Assembly: GCF_006715635.1 (NCBI RefSeq)
Contig: NZ_VFNP01000002.1
Coordinates: 2,914,001-2,978,000, forward strand
DNA: 64,000 nucleotides
Source of the DNA: Streptomyces sp. SLBN-118
Lineage (GTDB): Bacteria > Actinomycetota > Actinomycetes > Streptomycetales > Streptomycetaceae
Direction: 5' to 3'
Shown piece by piece: positions 1,943 to 12,300 of this stretch. The translations under genes were made by a program, and so were the position numbers. The notes below the pieces were generated by a model that worked only from the letters and a program-made list of their open reading frames with translations, was not told the DNA's origin and made no database searches. Numbering within the stretch: position 1 is the stretch's first letter; every line of letters begins with the position of its first letter.

Positions 1943-1964
1943 CCCCCGTCGCTGAGCGGGGTCA
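1940..1964. terminator. Small hairpin between convergent genes
   Basis: TGACCCC and GGGGTCA form a 7-bp stem around an 11-base loop, overlapping the stop codons of both the PBP gene and the convergent SMR gene. There is no T-run, as is common in Streptomyces. It is a plausible two-way terminator. Confidence 0.45.
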
Positions 1965-2282
1965 GTGACCCGAGGTCGCCTTCAGACCGACCACCGCGAC
2001 CAGCAGCAGACACACGAAGAAGATCCGGGCCGCGGTCGCGGGCTCGTTCAGGGTGACCATGCCGACCACGGCCGCACCGGCCGCGCCGATGCCGACCCAG
2101 ACGCCGTACGCCGTGCCGATCGGCAGACTCCTGGCGGCGTACGACAGCAGCATCATGCTGGCGACGATCCCCAGACCGGTGAACATGCTCGGCCACAGCC
2201 GGGTGAACCCGTCGGTGAACTTCATGCCGATCGACCAGCCGACCTCGAGCAGACCGGCGACAACAAGCAGAACCCAGGCCAT
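1962..2282 (-). CDS. SMR-family exporter, guanidinium exporter (Gdx/SugE) type
   Basis: A 106-residue small multidrug resistance protein with four predicted membrane helices, the usual family length. The N-terminus MAWVLLVVAGLLEVGWSIGM carries the family's essential membrane Glu (LEVGW), and the loop before the last helix has the usual NEP sequence (TLNEPATA). The ATG at 2282 is chosen because GGAGGTG lies about six bases upstream; a longer open frame would run through the riboswitch. The guanidine-III riboswitch directly upstream argues for guanidinium/H+ antiport rather than quaternary-amine export. The substrate is inferred from family and riboswitch. Confidence 0.9.
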   Translation of the reverse strand: MAWVLLVVAGLLEVGWSIGMKFTDGFTRLWPSMFTGLGIVASMMLLSYAARSLPIGTAYGVWVGIGAAGAAVVGMVTLNEPATAARIFFVCLLLVAVVGLKATSGH

Positions 2283-2312
2283 GACGGCACCTCCGAGACG
2301 CGGAACTTCAAC

Positions 2313-2359
2313 GGGTGCGTCGTCTTTGCGGCAACCCGGTACGGCGCGTCTCGTCGGGT
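2313..2359 (-). promoter_or_regulatory. Guanidine-III (ykkC-III) riboswitch
   Basis: On the minus strand this reads CCCGACGAGACGCGCCGTAC, then an ACCGGGT half-stem, then CAAAGACGACGC. It lines up with the compact ykkC-III class: a short P1 (ACCCG with CGGGT), the conserved GACGAG, and a GCGCCGU element that pairs in a pseudoknot with the 3' ACGACGC (one C-A mismatch). It lies about 30 bases upstream of the SMR start codon. Ligand binding in this class exposes the ribosome site, so guanidinium should raise translation of the exporter. The match was recognised by eye. Confidence 0.82.
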
Positions 2360-2384
2360 GCATCCACGGTAGCAAAGGGCAGGC

Positions 2385-2414
2385 AAAAGGGCCGGTGACC
2401 TGGGCCACCAGCCC
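2385..2414 (-). terminator. Intrinsic terminator of the GroES-like gene
   Basis: A 9-bp stem (GGGCTGGTG with CACCGGCCC, one G-T pair) with an eight-base loop is followed on the minus strand by TTTT. It lies after the GroES-like stop codon and before the guanidine riboswitch, separating the two transcripts. Confidence 0.65.
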
Positions 2415-2436
2415 TTCGCCGTCCGTACAGATGCCG

Positions 2437-2793
2437 CTAGAGATACAGCCCGGTGGAGTCCTCGGAGCCCTGGAAACGGTCCGCGGCGACGGCATGCAGA
2501 TCGCGCTCGCGCATCAGCACATACGCGACACCCCGCACCTCGACCTCGGCGCGGTCCTCGGGGTCGTACAGCACCCGGTCGCCCGGCTCCACGGTGCGCA
2601 CGTTCTGCCCGACGGCAACCACCTCGGCCCAGGCCAGCCGCCGGCCGACGGCCGCGGTCGCCGGGATGACGATGCCGCCGCTGGAACGCCGCTCACCCTC
2701 CGGGATGTCGGTCCTGACCAGCACACGGTCGTGCAGCATCCGGATCGGCAGCTTGTCATGGGTGGTACTGGGGTCATGGCTGTTGGCGCTCAC
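2437..2793 (-). CDS. GroES-like co-chaperonin family protein
   Basis: A 118-residue protein with the GroES beta-barrel signature: PIRMLHDRVLVRTD near the N-terminus, SSGGIVIP as the mobile-loop flank, GDRVLYDP, and a hydrophobic C-terminal strand. GroES is normally ~100 residues; the extra length is a polar N-terminus and a C-terminal tail. There is no groEL beside it, so it is a second, stand-alone GroES-like protein whose partner is unknown. Start is GTG with an AGGTAGG-like site upstream. A specialised rather than housekeeping role is inferred. Confidence 0.85.
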   Translation of the reverse strand: MSANSHDPSTTHDKLPIRMLHDRVLVRTDIPEGERRSSGGIVIPATAAVGRRLAWAEVVAVGQNVRTVEPGDRVLYDPEDRAEVEVRGVAYVLMRERDLHAVAADRFQGSEDSTGLYL

Positions 2794-2836: not shown

Positions 2837-3157
2837 TCACCCCCGCCGCCTTCTCGCCGACACCGCGAGCAGCCCCACAATTCCCACGACCACCAGTGCC
2901 ACCGGCACCAGGCGCTCCAGGCGCGGGCCCCCGTCCTCATCGACGAACTGTGCCTTCACGTCGGTCACCGTGCGGTTCACCGCGACGACGGCGCGGCCCG
3001 CCGTCTGGTCCACGGACGATGCAAGCCTGGCCCTGGCGTCGCCGATGACCGTCTTCGGGTGCACCCGCACACCGATCTCGTCGAGCGTCTCGGCGAGCTG
3101 CTCGCGCCTGCGGACGATGTCCGCCTCGATCTGCGCAGGGGTCCTGGCATCCGACAC
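2837..3157 (-). CDS. DUF3618 small membrane protein
   Basis: 106 residues. The N-terminal half, TPAQIEADIVRRREQLAETL, is the DUF3618 signature, followed by a helical stretch with DEIGVRVHPKTVIGDARA, and a single C-terminal membrane helix (LVPVALVVVGIVGLLAV) ending in Arg-rich residues. The GTG start at 3157 is preferred because GGAGG lies just upstream; an in-frame upstream start would add 26 unlikely residues. The function of the family is unknown. In actinomycetes it often accompanies YtxH-like or DUF1490-like membrane stress proteins. Confidence 0.8.
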   Translation of the reverse strand: MSDARTPAQIEADIVRRREQLAETLDEIGVRVHPKTVIGDARARLASSVDQTAGRAVVAVNRTVTDVKAQFVDEDGGPRLERLVPVALVVVGIVGLLAVSARRRRG

Positions 3158-3296
3158 CGCGCTGCCTCCGTCGTCGATTCCGGTAGTCCTTCCTCGACAG
3201 TCTGTCAGCTCGGTCGCTCCCGCACTCCACGGCACCCCTATTACGCTCGGCGGCGTACACCCTCACCTCACCCCCCGCACGTCTTCGAGGAGAACC

Positions 3297-3764
3297 ATGA
3301 GCGAGCGACTCCAGCCCGGCGACACCGCCCCCGACTTCACGCTGCCCGACGCGGACGGCAACGAGGTCTCGCTCGCGGACCACAAGGGCCGCAAGGTCAT
3401 CGTCTACTTCTACCCGGCCGCCCTTACCCCTGGCTGCACCAAGCAGGCCTGCGATTTCACGGACAATCTTGAGCTGCTGGCGGGCGCGGGCTACGACGTG
3501 ATCGGCGTGTCCCCGGACAAGCCGGAGAAGCTGGCGAAGTTCCGTGAGAAGGAGTCCCTGAAGGTCACGCTGGTCGGCGACCCGTCGAAGGAGACGCTGG
3601 AGGCGTACGGCGCTTTCGGCGAGAAGAAGCTGTACGGCAAGACGGTGACCGGTGTCATCCGTTCGACGGTGGTCGTGGACGAGGAGGGCAAGGTCGAGCG
3701 TGCCCTGTACAACGTGAAGGCGACCGGCCATGTCGCCAAGATCATCAAGGACCTGGGTGTCTGA
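3297..3764 (+). CDS. bcp: Thioredoxin-dependent peroxiredoxin, Bcp/PrxQ type
   Basis: 155 residues, the normal Bcp length. It reduces hydrogen and organic peroxides using thioredoxin in the cytoplasm. The fold signature GDTAPDFTLPDADGNEVSL opens the protein. The peroxidatic Cys47 lies in LTPGCTKQACDF and the resolving Cys52 five residues later, the arrangement of atypical two-Cys PrxQ enzymes. The usual PxxxTPGCT motif appears as PAALTPGCT. The ATG is preceded by GAGGAGAACC. It stands alone, divergent from the DUF3618 gene, so it has its own promoter in the 3158-3296 gap. Confidence 0.95.
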   Translation: MSERLQPGDTAPDFTLPDADGNEVSLADHKGRKVIVYFYPAALTPGCTKQACDFTDNLELLAGAGYDVIGVSPDKPEKLAKFREKESLKVTLVGDPSKETLEAYGAFGEKKLYGKTVTGVIRSTVVVDEEGKVERALYNVKATGHVAKIIKDLGV

Positions 3765-3894: not shown

Positions 3895-4521
3895 ATGCCG
3901 GTCAGGTACACCCGGGAACTACTCGACGAGGCGGCCCGCGAGACGACGAACTTCGACGACGCGGTCCGCTGGTGCGGCGGCAACCCGACACCGGGCAGCA
4001 GACGCTACATACGCGCCAAGATGGCAGCGGCAGGCATCGACACGTCGCACTTCACCCCTGCCGGTGTGCGCCACACCGAGGAAACATTGCGCGAACTGGT
4101 CGCCTGTTCCAGGAGTGTGGCCGAGGTCGTACGTCGGTTGGGAATCAACCCTGTGGGCGGCAACCAGGCTCACATCGGCCGCCGGATAGCCGCGTTGCGC
4201 ATCGACACCTCACACTTCCTGCGCGCGCCCCGGGGCCGGCCGAAAGGGTCCCTGGGAAACCGACTTGTCCTGGGCTCGCCGGCCGACGGCAGGATTCCGG
4301 GCGAACGCCTGCGCCGCGAACTGCTCCGGACCGGGATCCAGGAGTCGTGCGCACTATGTGGCACAGGAACGGAATGGAACGGCAAACCGCTCCGACTCGA
4401 AGTCGACCACCGCAACGGCGACTGGTGGGACAACCGCCCGGAGAACCTCCGGCTACTCTGCCCCAACTGTCATGCGGTGACTGACACTTACCGTGGCCGC
4501 AATCGGAGGCATACGGCATGA
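3895..4521 (+). CDS. HNH endonuclease with two GIDTSHF helical modules
   Basis: 208 residues. Residues 7-53 and 63-108 are two copies of a ~45-residue helical module ending in GIDTSHF or RIDTSHF, each resembling a helix-turn-helix. Residues 152-193 form an HNH domain with zinc-binding CxxC pairs (CALC and CPNC) around LEVDHRNGDWWDNRPENLRL; His172 and Asn174 would be catalytic. The ATG at 3895 follows GGATGGAGGG. Its stop overlaps the next start (ATGA), so the two nuclease genes are co-translated. The architecture suggests modular DNA recognition plus cleavage, like a homing or restriction-type nuclease. No methyltransferase is nearby. The biological target is unknown. Confidence 0.85.
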   Translation: MPVRYTRELLDEAARETTNFDDAVRWCGGNPTPGSRRYIRAKMAAAGIDTSHFTPAGVRHTEETLRELVACSRSVAEVVRRLGINPVGGNQAHIGRRIAALRIDTSHFLRAPRGRPKGSLGNRLVLGSPADGRIPGERLRRELLRTGIQESCALCGTGTEWNGKPLRLEVDHRNGDWWDNRPENLRLLCPNCHAVTDTYRGRNRRHTA

Positions 4522-5411
4522 GCAATCGCCACGCGTACCCTCGTGACCTGCTGGTCCGGACTGCCGCCACCTCCACGAGCCTCGTCGACATGCTGCGCAG
4601 ACTGGACGTACCCCTGGGCAGCGGTCCGTACAGGTATCTGCGGGACCGGTTGCGGCAGTTCGGCATCGACACCTCGCACTTTGACCACGAACCCCTCCCC
4701 CGACGCAAGCCCCACTCGTACACGCGGGAACTGCTCGCTGAAGCCGCAGCCAGTTCACAGAACATCCGCGGGATGCTGGAGTTCATGGGTGTCGCGCCCT
4801 ACGACAGTGTGTACAGCCACCTTCGCCGGAAGCTCGACCAGTTCGGGATCGACACGTCTCATTTCACGGGGCGGCGCGGAAACACTCAGCGAGAACCCTT
4901 TTCGCAAGACGAACTGGCCAGAGCCGTGGCGGAGTCGTACAGCCTGGCCGAGGTGCTTCGCGCTCTTGGCTGCCCCAGTGGCGGCGCCGGGCGCGCTCGT
5001 GTACAGCGAAGCATCGCCATCCACGGCATCTCCACGGCCCACTTCGTGGGGCAGGGCCATCAGCGCGGCCGACCGTCACCCACGCGCAAGACCGCTGCGG
5101 AGATCCTTCGTCGACTCGAACCCGGATCTCCACGGACGACGACCGCGCTGCTGCGCCGTGCGCTCGGCGAGTCGGGGGTACGCCAGGCATGCGGCGAGTG
5201 CGGCACCGGGACCACTTGGCAGGGCAAGCCGCTCGTCCTGGAGATCGACCACATCAACGGCGACCGTCTCGACAACCGGTTGGAAAACCTGCGCTTCCTC
5301 TGCCCGTCGTGCCACAGCCAGACAAGATCCTTCTCGAACCCTCGGGGCGAGGCACAGTACAGTGGGCGCCGCGGGTCCGTACCCCAGCTGGCCAAGAGGG
5401 CGCCGGTTTAG
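4518..5411 (+). CDS. HNH endonuclease with three GIDTSHF helical modules, overlapping a tRNA-like gene
   Basis: 297 residues. Three modules end at residues 55, 116 and 176 (GIDTSHF, GIDTSHF, GISTAHF), each with the pattern of a short helix, an LRxLG turn and a basic helix. The HNH domain spans about 224-266: CGEC, LEIDHINGDRLDNRLENLRF, CPSC. It overlaps the upstream HNH gene by four bases (ATGA) and is clearly its paralogue with one extra module. The last 13 codons lie inside a cloverleaf sequence, and the TAG stop is exactly the anticodon of that tRNA. The C-terminal ~25 residues are therefore dictated by the RNA gene. Function unknown; a homing-like or defence nuclease is the leading guess. 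Confidence 0.85.
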   Translation: MSNRHAYPRDLLVRTAATSTSLVDMLRRLDVPLGSGPYRYLRDRLRQFGIDTSHFDHEPLPRRKPHSYTRELLAEAAASSQNIRGMLEFMGVAPYDSVYSHLRRKLDQFGIDTSHFTGRRGNTQREPFSQDELARAVAESYSLAEVLRALGCPSGGAGRARVQRSIAIHGISTAHFVGQGHQRGRPSPTRKTAAEILRRLEPGSPRTTTALLRRALGESGVRQACGECGTGTTWQGKPLVLEIDHINGDRLDNRLENLRFLCPSCHSQTRSFSNPRGEAQYSGRRGSVPQLAKRAPV

Positions 5412-5448
5412 GTCCGGTGTGTCGTGGGTTCGAGTCCCACCGGGCCCA
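5373..5448 (+). tRNA. tRNA-like gene with UAG anticodon and short variable loop
   Basis: A complete 76-base cloverleaf folds by eye: acceptor GGGTCCG/CGGGCCC (7 bp, one G-T), T8, a 3-bp D stem with a 13-base loop holding A14, G15 and G18G19, anticodon stem GCCGG/CCGGT with loop TTTAGGT (anticodon TAG at 5409-5411), a five-base variable loop GTGTC allowing the G15-C48 pair, T stem GTGGG/CCCAC with TTCGAGT, and discriminator A. UAG reads the Leu codon CUA, but leucine tRNAs need a long variable arm, which this lacks. Its 3' end is ACA rather than ACCA. It is either an unorthodox tRNA, a regulatory tRNA mimic or a decayed copy. It overlaps the HNH gene end. Confidence 0.75.
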
Positions 5449-5451
5449 CAG

Positions 5452-5488
5452 CGAAGGGCGCAGCACCGCATCGGTGCCGCGCCCTTCG
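5452..5488. terminator. Strong two-way terminator
   Basis: A 10-bp stem (CGAAGGGCGC with GCGCCCTTCG) continues into a 6-bp stem (GCACCG with CGGTGC) around a three-base loop. It starts four bases after the tRNA-like gene and ends 12 bases before the convergent rdgB stop, so it can end both transcripts. Confidence 0.8.
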
Positions 5489-5500
5489 GCGTACCCGGCG

Positions 5501-6103
5501 TCAGCCCAGCAGCTCCCGGACCACCGGAACCAGCGCGCGAAACGCGTGTCCCCGGTGGCTGATCGCGTTCTTCTCCTCAGGGGTCAGTTCCGCACACGTG
5601 CGCGTGTCGCCCTCCGGCTGCAGGATCGGGTCGTAGCCGAAGCCGCCCGAGCCCTCGGGGGCGTAGCGCAGGGTGCCGCGCAGACGGCCCTCGACGACAC
5701 GTTCCGTGCCGTCGGGCAGGACAAGGGCGGCCGCGCAGGCGAAGTGGGCGCCGCGGTGGAGTTCGTCGATGTCGGAGAGCTGGTCCAGGAGCAGGGTCAG
5801 GTTGGCGCGGTCGTCGCCGTGGCGGCCTGCCCAGCGGGCGGAGAAGATGCCGGGCGCGCCGCCGAGGACGTCGACGCAGAGGCCGGAGTCGTCGGAGACG
5901 GCCGGGAGGCCGGTGGCCTGTGCGAGGGCGTGCGCTTTCAGCAGCGCGTTCTCGGTGAAGGTGACGCCGGTTTCCTTGACGTCGGGGACTTCGGGGTAGG
6001 CATCCGCGCCGACGAGTTCGTGGGTGAGGCCCGCGTCGGCGAGGATGGCCCTCAGCTCGGTGATTTTCCCGGTGTTGCGCGTGGCGAGGATCAGTCGGGT
6101 CAT
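5501..6103 (-). CDS. rdgB: XTP/dITP pyrophosphatase (RdgB/HAM1 family)
   Basis: 200 residues, the standard length. It hydrolyses non-canonical purine triphosphates (dITP, XTP) to monophosphate and pyrophosphate, keeping deaminated purines out of nucleic acids. Seen motifs: LATRNTGKITEL at the N-terminus for phosphate binding, FTENALLKA, the metal-binding SDDSGL (Asp71, Asp72), SARWAG, GGFGYDPI and a C-terminal SHRGHAFR. It follows rph on the same strand with a lipoprotein gene between, an order common in actinomycetes where rph and rdgB are neighbours. Confidence 0.96.
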   Translation of the reverse strand: MTRLILATRNTGKITELRAILADAGLTHELVGADAYPEVPDVKETGVTFTENALLKAHALAQATGLPAVSDDSGLCVDVLGGAPGIFSARWAGRHGDDRANLTLLLDQLSDIDELHRGAHFACAAALVLPDGTERVVEGRLRGTLRYAPEGSGGFGYDPILQPEGDTRTCAELTPEEKNAISHRGHAFRALVPVVRELLG

Positions 6104-11835: not shown

Positions 11836-12300
11836 ATGGACACGTCGTGGTGGCTCGCGGTGCTTGCCGTGGTGGTGATCGCGCTGGTCGCCGCGGTGGT
11901 GGACGGGCGCGGGCGCTCGGACGCCCGCCGCCCCGGCGGGCGGGCCCGCCCGCCGGTCCGCCCGACCGGCCCCCGCCGTACCCCGAAGCGGCGCCCGCAG
12001 CCGGGCGAAATCTGGTGGGCGGAAGTCCCTTACGAAGACCGCCCCCGCACGAAGGACAGGCCGTGCCTGGTGCTTTCGGTACGGGGCGACACGGCGCTGG
12101 TCGCGAAGATCACGAGCAAGTACCACGACGAGAGGCCGGGCGTGATCTCCCTGCCACCGGGGACGGTGGGCGACGCGCAGGGGAGGGCGAGCTTTCTGGA
12201 GACGGCGGAGCTGAGGGACGTGGGGGTGTGGGGGTTCAGGAGACGGGTGGGGGTGGTGGACCCGGTGGTGTGGGACCAGGTCCGCCACTTGGCGGTGTGA
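11836..12300 (+). CDS. PemK/MazF-like protein with N-terminal membrane anchor
   Basis: 154 residues. Residues 5-23 are a membrane helix (WWLAVLAVVVIALVAAVV), followed by ~30 residues rich in Arg and Pro, then a PemK/MazF-type beta barrel: QPGEIWWAEVPYEDRPRTKDRP with CLVLSV, and KITSKYHD. MazF toxins are cytoplasmic mRNA interferases, so a membrane tether and a basic linker are atypical. No antitoxin gene adjoins it. It may be a domesticated RNA-binding barrel. Start ATG 11836 is the first in frame before the membrane helix. Confidence 0.8.
   Translation: MDTSWWLAVLAVVVIALVAAVVDGRGRSDARRPGGRARPPVRPTGPRRTPKRRPQPGEIWWAEVPYEDRPRTKDRPCLVLSVRGDTALVAKITSKYHDERPGVISLPPGTVGDAQGRASFLETAELRDVGVWGFRRRVGVVDPVVWDQVRHLAV

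Follow-up and report, generated by a model that had tools for sequence, protein, structure and literature searches.

A class I tRNA-Leu(UAG) beside paired HNH endonuclease genes in Streptomyces, probably installed by a phage-derived homing cassette

In the chromosome of Streptomyces sp. SLBN-118, the tRNA that reads the rare leucine codon CUA is most likely a short-armed class I tRNA-Leu(UAG), encoded directly behind two HNH endonuclease genes, and a phage-derived homing cassette of this composition (HNH-A–HNH-B–tRNA) has probably replaced the chromosomal tRNA-Leu(UAG) gene, with cutting, charging and transfer read from sequence comparison. The tRNA gene, here named type Id, occupies positions 5373–5448 on the plus strand of the window, the 64,000-nt stretch that was analysed and to which coordinates refer. 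It is preceded on the same strand by HNH-A (3895–4521, 208 aa) and HNH-B (4518–5411, 297 aa), the 3' end of the first overlapping the start of the second by 4 bases.

The cloverleaf is a genuine tRNA under selection. ARAGORN called it tRNA-Leu with anticodon TAG (5373–5449) and Rfam RF00005 matched 5373–5448 with 44.0 bits (gathering score 29), confirming the class I tRNA with a UAG anticodon, the loop and stem features and the missing encoded CCA that an earlier note had described from the letters of this DNA. The gene specifies U8, A14, G15-C48, G18G19, TTCGA and A73, and its variable loop has 5 bases, the long class II arm usual for tRNA-Leu being absent. Its minimum-energy fold is the 7/3/5/5 cloverleaf, with an unremarkable energy (z −0.97; 31/200 shuffles fold equally well), and the reality of the tRNA rests on conservation because energy by itself would not have revealed it. 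Full-length homologues were found in 29 of 150 Streptomyces genomes searched (SLBN-118 included), with a mean column identity of 95% across the 29, and ARAGORN types all 29 as tRNA-Leu(tag). With identical sequences counted once, here and in the tallies of identity elements, 17 distinct homologues keep 20/20 stem pairs (340/340 pair cells standard) and show two-sided changes in 10 of the 20; 0/500 shuffles match either value, and sliding the pair partners abolishes the pairing signal. The same covariation fixes the D stem at 3 bp, with 13·22 unpaired. A covariance model built from the homologues gave these 29 at least 91.6 bits and the remainder at most 74.5 (an ordinary tRNA-Met, 64.6), so neither the covariance scores nor the compensatory changes in the stems refute a tRNA.

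The earlier note had held that this molecule cannot be a normal tRNA-Leu. A normal role is instead the most likely one: because it is the sole UAG tRNA found, because CUA sites face leucine and because it has a leucine-type D arm, A14 and A73, the window tRNA most likely serves the cell as a class I tRNA-Leu(UAG), presumably charged with leucine, rather than being a mimic. ARAGORN typed 65 of the 66 tRNA hits in the genome (all except L047), and only the window tRNA among them carries UAG; the leucine anticodons are CAA, GAG (two copies), CAG, UAA and the single UAG. CUA is rare, accounting for 52 of 124,593 codons in 464 kb read with a simple gene caller. Conserved CUA sites align with leucine in 11/12 cases against genome G005 and in 9/11 against G089, and CUG sites do so at fractions of 0.90 and 0.88, respectively; nine CUA sites are common to both comparisons and 13 of 14 distinct sites face leucine at least once. 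Since CUA sites align with leucine as CUG sites do, CUA is most likely still leucine. Separately, in a comparison of three genomes only, CUA per 1,000 codons was 0.97 in G089 (which has a canonical class II tRNA), 0.42 in SLBN-118 and 0.31 in G005.

Identity elements point the same way. The combination of unpaired 13·22, A14 and A73 is present in 66/66 distinct Streptomyces class I UAG tRNAs and in 4/4 other tRNA-Leu of the SLBN-118 genome; phage class I tRNA-Leu have unpaired 13·22 and A73 in 30/30 cases and A14 in 28/30, and 13·22 is unpaired in 1/41 other class I tRNAs of SLBN-118. The anticodon loop equals that of the organism's own tRNA-Leu(CAG) and tRNA-Leu(GAG) except for the wobble base, and one gene for leucyl-tRNA synthetase (LeuRS; two matched pieces) was found in 7/7 genomes carrying different tRNA types. 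For the Escherichia coli LeuRS, A73 and contacts of the D and T loops are described as required, and the anticodon and long arm as dispensable, in an excerpt of PMC9976931.

Of the 150 genomes, 132 (29 + 3 + 5 + 12 + 28 + 55) have a verified UAG tRNA, nearly always beside rdgB, and it is class I in 51 of the 132. Three genomes have a more distant class I UAG tRNA (L137–L139) in a layout identical to that of type Id loci, five have a canonical class II UAG tRNA (four beside the peroxiredoxin gene bcp or rdgB, one at a contig end) and 12 have a class II UAG tRNA of the GCGGCCG/GCGGTCG type (11 beside rdgB, one at a contig end). Using rdgB as an anchor in 90 further genomes yielded 89 loci, 83 of them with a UAG tRNA (28/30 + 55/59). 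The other 18 genomes comprise 11 outside the examination, one without an rdgB match and six (G037, G047, G105, G109, G120 and G121; loci L272, L273, L463, L477, L504 and L506) with no UAG tRNA beside rdgB in the stretch seen. At one chromosomal place, the genus thus holds tRNA-Leu(UAG) in at least six different forms, of class I and class II. HNH genes lie upstream of the tRNA in 27 of 29 type Id loci, with partial HNH matches in L105 and L107; no HNH genes accompany the class I tRNA at L100 (genome G014) and L102 (G124). Among rdgB-anchored loci, HNH genes accompany 16/19 class I and 33/64 class II tRNAs (p = 0.016), a tally that was typed by hand, with L466 recounted as class I (the script had called it class II by length), and in which the view reached about 1.4 kb upstream, so that the absence of HNH genes there is no proof.

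The HNH genes belong to a phage family. Both proteins match the phrog_10822 profile (HNH-A, 4e-48; HNH-B, 1.2e-62), contain Pfam HNH_3 (HNH-A) or HNH and HNH_3 (HNH-B) with the conserved HNH residues present, and match a homing-endonuclease model (5e-14 and 3e-11, respectively). A defence-model scan of the two proteins alone gave homing-endonuclease and weak ZorE HNH matches, with no Septu model among the PADLOC matches, and the direct neighbours are bcp and rdgB. The structure predicted for HNH-B shows three repeats of three helices each and an HNH domain at the C-terminus (pLDDT 87.6, pTM 0.52), and structural matches to this model were weak only. Ratios of nonsynonymous to synonymous divergence (dN/dS) against the nearest relative, L360, were 0.25 for HNH-B and 0.12 for HNH-A, and 0.12–0.29 in five other HNH-B pairs, indicating purifying selection on both genes. 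Synonymous divergence (dS) from L360 was 0.18 for HNH-B, 0.28 for HNH-A, 0.35 for rdgB and 0.40 for bcp; in this single pair, the lower HNH values fit a younger exchange.

Relatives of the HNH proteins were detected by tblastn in 209 of 50,697 phage records, and six phage regions were inspected. In phages mistaenkt and Michonne the HNH gene is followed after one base by a class I tRNA-Leu(UAG), in GodonK a class I tRNA-Leu(UAG) precedes the HNH gene by three bases, and in Vibrio phage D69 the HNH gene overlaps tRNA-Leu(UAG). In Pseudomonas phage B8 the HNH gene is within a tRNA array and not adjoining Leu, and Atu_ph07 has no annotated tRNA in the stretch around its HNH relative. Larger samples comprised the best 80 of 550 chromosomal and the best 80 of 368 viral confirmed matches, a choice that favours close relatives. 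A tRNA lies within ~250 bases of HNH in 67/80 viral contig loci, distances here resting on an approximate HNH end, and the nearest tRNA is Leu in 39 of these 67 versus 51/283 other tRNAs of the same stretches (p = 1.9e-10). With no distance limit, the nearest viral tRNA-Leu is mostly class II (29/41), and the HNH family is thus associated with both classes of tRNA-Leu. Two viral rows, L302 and L307, were left out of a separate comparison. All 80 closest chromosomal HNH loci, from Streptomyces and a few relatives, have tRNA-Leu(UAG), on the same strand in 79, with 60 class I and 20 class II; S. griseus NCTC 13033 is one of the strains with a class I UAG tRNA. In genomes G063 and G097 the class I type aligns at 88% identity along 79% of its length with a Streptomyces phage class I tRNA-Leu(tag) and matches 145 phage records (98 mycobacterial-phage, 45 Streptomyces-phage); no comparable phage tRNA match was found for the type in the window. 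We note that two adjoining tRNA-Leu(tag) genes of unlike build occur in each of the Streptomyces phages Jay2Jay and Karimac (L507, 961–1269; L508, 1153–1320).

Trees of the neighbouring genes separate the history of the tRNA from that of its surroundings. The rdgB tree was built from 149 loci (156 minus seven without a usable rdgB stretch), including six rdgB-identical pairs, some of which are probably the same organism from two collections; its well-supported branches force at least 18 changes for type Id. This set and a 117-row set both contain loci picked for HNH similarity. A 41-row set holds loci not picked in this way, after dropping the long branches L160, L244 and L108 and loci without usable HNH-B or rdgB. 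On these 41 rows, type Id requires 5 changes on the HNH-B tree (shuffled, 13.3; 0/500) and 12 on the rdgB tree (shuffled, 13.2; 156/500). Type Id therefore clusters on the HNH-B tree and not on the rdgB tree, and the tRNA and HNH-B share a history that rdgB lacks. Such a site-linked history, separate from that of the flanking genes, is a criterion for a homing endonuclease, and among the tRNA types it was found for type Id only. Type IIa took 14 changes on the HNH-B tree versus 18.8 (1/500) in the larger HNH-chosen set and showed no clustering in the 41-row set. The idea in the earlier note of a tie between the nuclease-encoding element and this tRNA site is borne out; its interpretation as a whole is partly supported.

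In the reading that we consider probable, the nuclease would cut a resident tRNA-Leu(UAG) gene lacking the cassette, and repair through the flanks against incoming DNA would copy in nucleases and tRNA jointly, as the trees suggest. The incoming tRNA would be different enough to escape cutting, and CUA would stay readable if LeuRS, as in the published E. coli work, needs A73, A14 and the D/T-loop core but not the long arm. The HNH genes may later decay or vanish while the tRNA persists, as in G014 and G124. Phage tRNA arrays are probably the source of the class I tRNA, presumably also for type Id. A more far-reaching version is possible and should be held tentatively, namely a natural cleave-and-rescue drive in which the HNH pair would destroy an indispensable tRNA gene and the cassette would supply a cut-proof class I replacement, the genus's CUA reader being repeatedly rewritten.

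Several results weigh against the homing cassette or against its leucine-charged tRNA. The cleavage site and the nuclease activity of the HNH proteins are putative. The window tRNA is 76% identical to a phage tRNA-Leu (GodonK) and 75% to the organism's own tRNA-Lys; as it is no nearer to phage tRNA-Leu, the phage origin of type Id rests on architecture and the HNH family. Types Ic, Ie and IIb do not group together on the HNH-B tree, and HNH-B alleles 47–50% identical to that of the window adjoin tRNAs 96–99% identical to its own (L085, L086 and L099), so the linkage is loose. The tRNA types still partly cluster on rdgB trees (1/200 and 2/200 shuffles as low, all types; 61 changes on the 149-locus tree, with a minimum of 5 and a shuffled mean of 68.4, for the first of these), which makes inheritance partly vertical, and the rdgB trees themselves are weakly resolved. 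As to leucine identity, the number of CUA sites is small, and unpaired 13·22 is not an exclusive mark, as it also occurs in 60/294 phage class I non-Leu tRNAs; 13·22 is paired in 11/34 type IIa tRNA-Leu. G15-C48 is found in 42/42 type Id sequences, and A15-U48 is an E. coli Leu determinant, described as essential there in an excerpt of PMC9976931; A15-U48 is present in 11/13 type Ic, 7/10 type Ie and 27/30 phage class I tRNA-Leu.

Among the alternatives, ordinary drift fares best and is nonetheless unlikely. Here the rarity of CUA would leave its tRNA nearly free to change and the HNH genes would be passengers at a permissive site, as the low CUA count, the class I tRNAs without HNH genes at L100 and L102, the 20/46 class II loci of one rdgB-anchored set without an HNH gene in the stretch seen and the loose coupling of HNH and tRNA types outside type Id would allow. 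This account is hard to square with strictly kept stems, the high column identity of type Id, a type Id that tracks HNH-B rather than rdgB, and HNH genes that are commoner beside class I than class II tRNAs. An arms race at the level of the tRNA, in which the HNH proteins or outside anticodon or variable-loop nucleases would hit class II tRNA-Leu(UAG) RNA and the short arm would be the resistant form, is less probable again: the double tRNA-Leu(tag) genes of Jay2Jay and Karimac would suit it, but the models that the HNH proteins match are those of phage HNH and homing endonucleases, the PADLOC matches include none for Septu, and HNH genes adjoin class II tRNAs too.

A change of code or mistranslation, with the class I tRNA charged by another synthetase and CUA not, or not only, leucine, appears very unlikely; mistranslation had been raised in the earlier note. 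It could appeal to the class I body, to G15-C48 in place of A15-U48 and to the nearest tRNAs of the same genome, which are Lys (75%) and then Met and His (72%). The CUA sites, facing leucine like CUG sites, lend mistranslation no support, and the leucine-type D arm, A14 and A73, the anticodon loop shared, wobble base excepted, with tRNA-Leu(CAG) and (GAG), and the single LeuRS all argue against a second identity. A regulatory tRNA mimic or pseudogene is the least likely of the alternatives: the window tRNA has the lowest Rfam score of the 66 genome hits, yet it is the only UAG tRNA found and has compensatory changes, a promoter box and a terminator-like hairpin, and nothing pointing to a mimic was found.

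Known systems resemble this arrangement in part. SegB of phages T4 and T6 is a free-standing GIY-YIG homing endonuclease at a tRNA gene region, and excerpts of PMC13096335 describe it as cleaving inside tRNA sequences and, through recombination, causing the tRNA region to spread or be amplified. The endonuclease gene likewise adjoins a tRNA in Streptomyces, but the family is HNH, the genes are usually two in tandem, they lie on bacterial chromosomes, homing is proposed from sequence, and the link is to one tRNA species, which was apparently replaced. The HNH genes of phage arrays (phrog_10822; mistaenkt, Michonne, GodonK and D69) are homologous and adjoin tRNA-Leu(UAG), class I in 3/4, but are single, shorter, with one N-terminal repeat, and set in an array of many tRNAs. 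A phage-like cluster in the Mycobacterium mucogenicum clade contains a tRNA-Leu(TAG) with a short variable loop together with an HNH gene; according to the relevant passage of PMC6582537, the host there also retains a long-armed tRNA-Leu(TAG), unlike here, where the class I form is the sole one found. Mitochondrial tRNA-Leu shares the short arm: passages of PMC9976931 report that leucine charging is specified there by A73 and A14 and that human mitochondrial tRNA-Leu(UUR) is charged without the long arm, although these cases concern an organelle and its mitochondrial LeuRS rather than a bacterial chromosome. By description, the tRNA also resembles SCOt23 of S. coelicolor, a tRNA-Leu(UAG) that passages of PMC9239103 report as needed for the rare CUA codon, with no mention there of tRNA class or HNH genes. 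Searches of open-licence PMC literature returned no paper that describes a class I form of tRNA-Leu(UAG) on a Streptomyces chromosome or ties it to HNH genes, PMC6582537 being the nearest. As far as these searches go, three aspects are new: the location on a chromosome, the replacement of the only CUA reader found, and the genus-wide turnover.

The surroundings of the cassette are largely conserved. To the left in the window is its usual neighbour, a bcp-type peroxiredoxin gene (3297–3764, plus strand; Pfam AhpC-TSA, 1.9e-37 on open reading frame (ORF) 2970–3764, within which the start at 3297 is our choice), and to the right is rdgB (5501–6103, minus strand; Ham1 family, Pfam Ham1p_like, 1.4e-63). 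Among 28 fetched type Id loci, rdgB is 3' of the tRNA in all 28, at 600 to 1,700 bases in L104 and L105, and bcp is at most 5 kb to the left in 22, inverted in L094. A −10-like promoter box identified by motif count (TACAGT, 5358–5363, plus strand) lies 15 bases 5' of the tRNA within the HNH-B frame, and TANNNT at −26 to −9 occurs at 146/156 UAG-tRNA loci versus 4/624 control windows. A GC-rich, terminator-like hairpin (5452–5488, plus strand; z −4.85, 0/200 shuffles equally stable) follows the tRNA; comparable hairpins, judged by eye only, are present 3' of the tRNA in relatives.

The HNH-B frame (4518–5411) closes with TAG at 5409–5411 (plus strand), the very triplet that ARAGORN assigns as anticodon. 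The earlier note had drawn attention to this overlap; the coincidence is exact, and comparison of the genes indicates that it is incidental, as the stop falls on the anticodon in 7 of 124 HNH-B genes examined, and in 64 of them the first stop base is at −18 to −10 before the tRNA. The frame in the window extends into the tRNA because the stop triplet that many relatives have in the −10-like box (cagTAGagt) is TAC here.

Other features were observed apart from the cassette. A Guanidine-III riboswitch (2314–2378, minus strand, 43.5 bits) lies in the 5' part of ORF 1962–2495 (minus strand), which we take to resemble an EmrE/SugE exporter; the two probably form an ordinary guanidine-exporter arrangement. 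An ARAGORN call of tRNA-Ala (ggc) at 11900–11997 (minus strand, 98 bases), at which Rfam gave nothing at the gathering score, is probably false. Elsewhere in the genome, four ~45-base copies of the 3' end of tRNA-Met (L003–L006; C2 at 2347900, 2353674, 2366748 and 2381588; real gene at 2466621) look like attachment ends of stacked integrative elements.

Related bacteria normally have stable sets of tRNAs, and rare leucine codons control development in Streptomyces (bldA/UUA); the finding bears on such codons in this genus. If the account given here is true, horizontal replacement of a tRNA gene can leave the code unchanged, a codon may be read in a bacterium by a class I tRNA-Leu alone, and laboratory Streptomyces would offer a way to test how far LeuRS recognition extends and how rescue-type selfish elements evolve.
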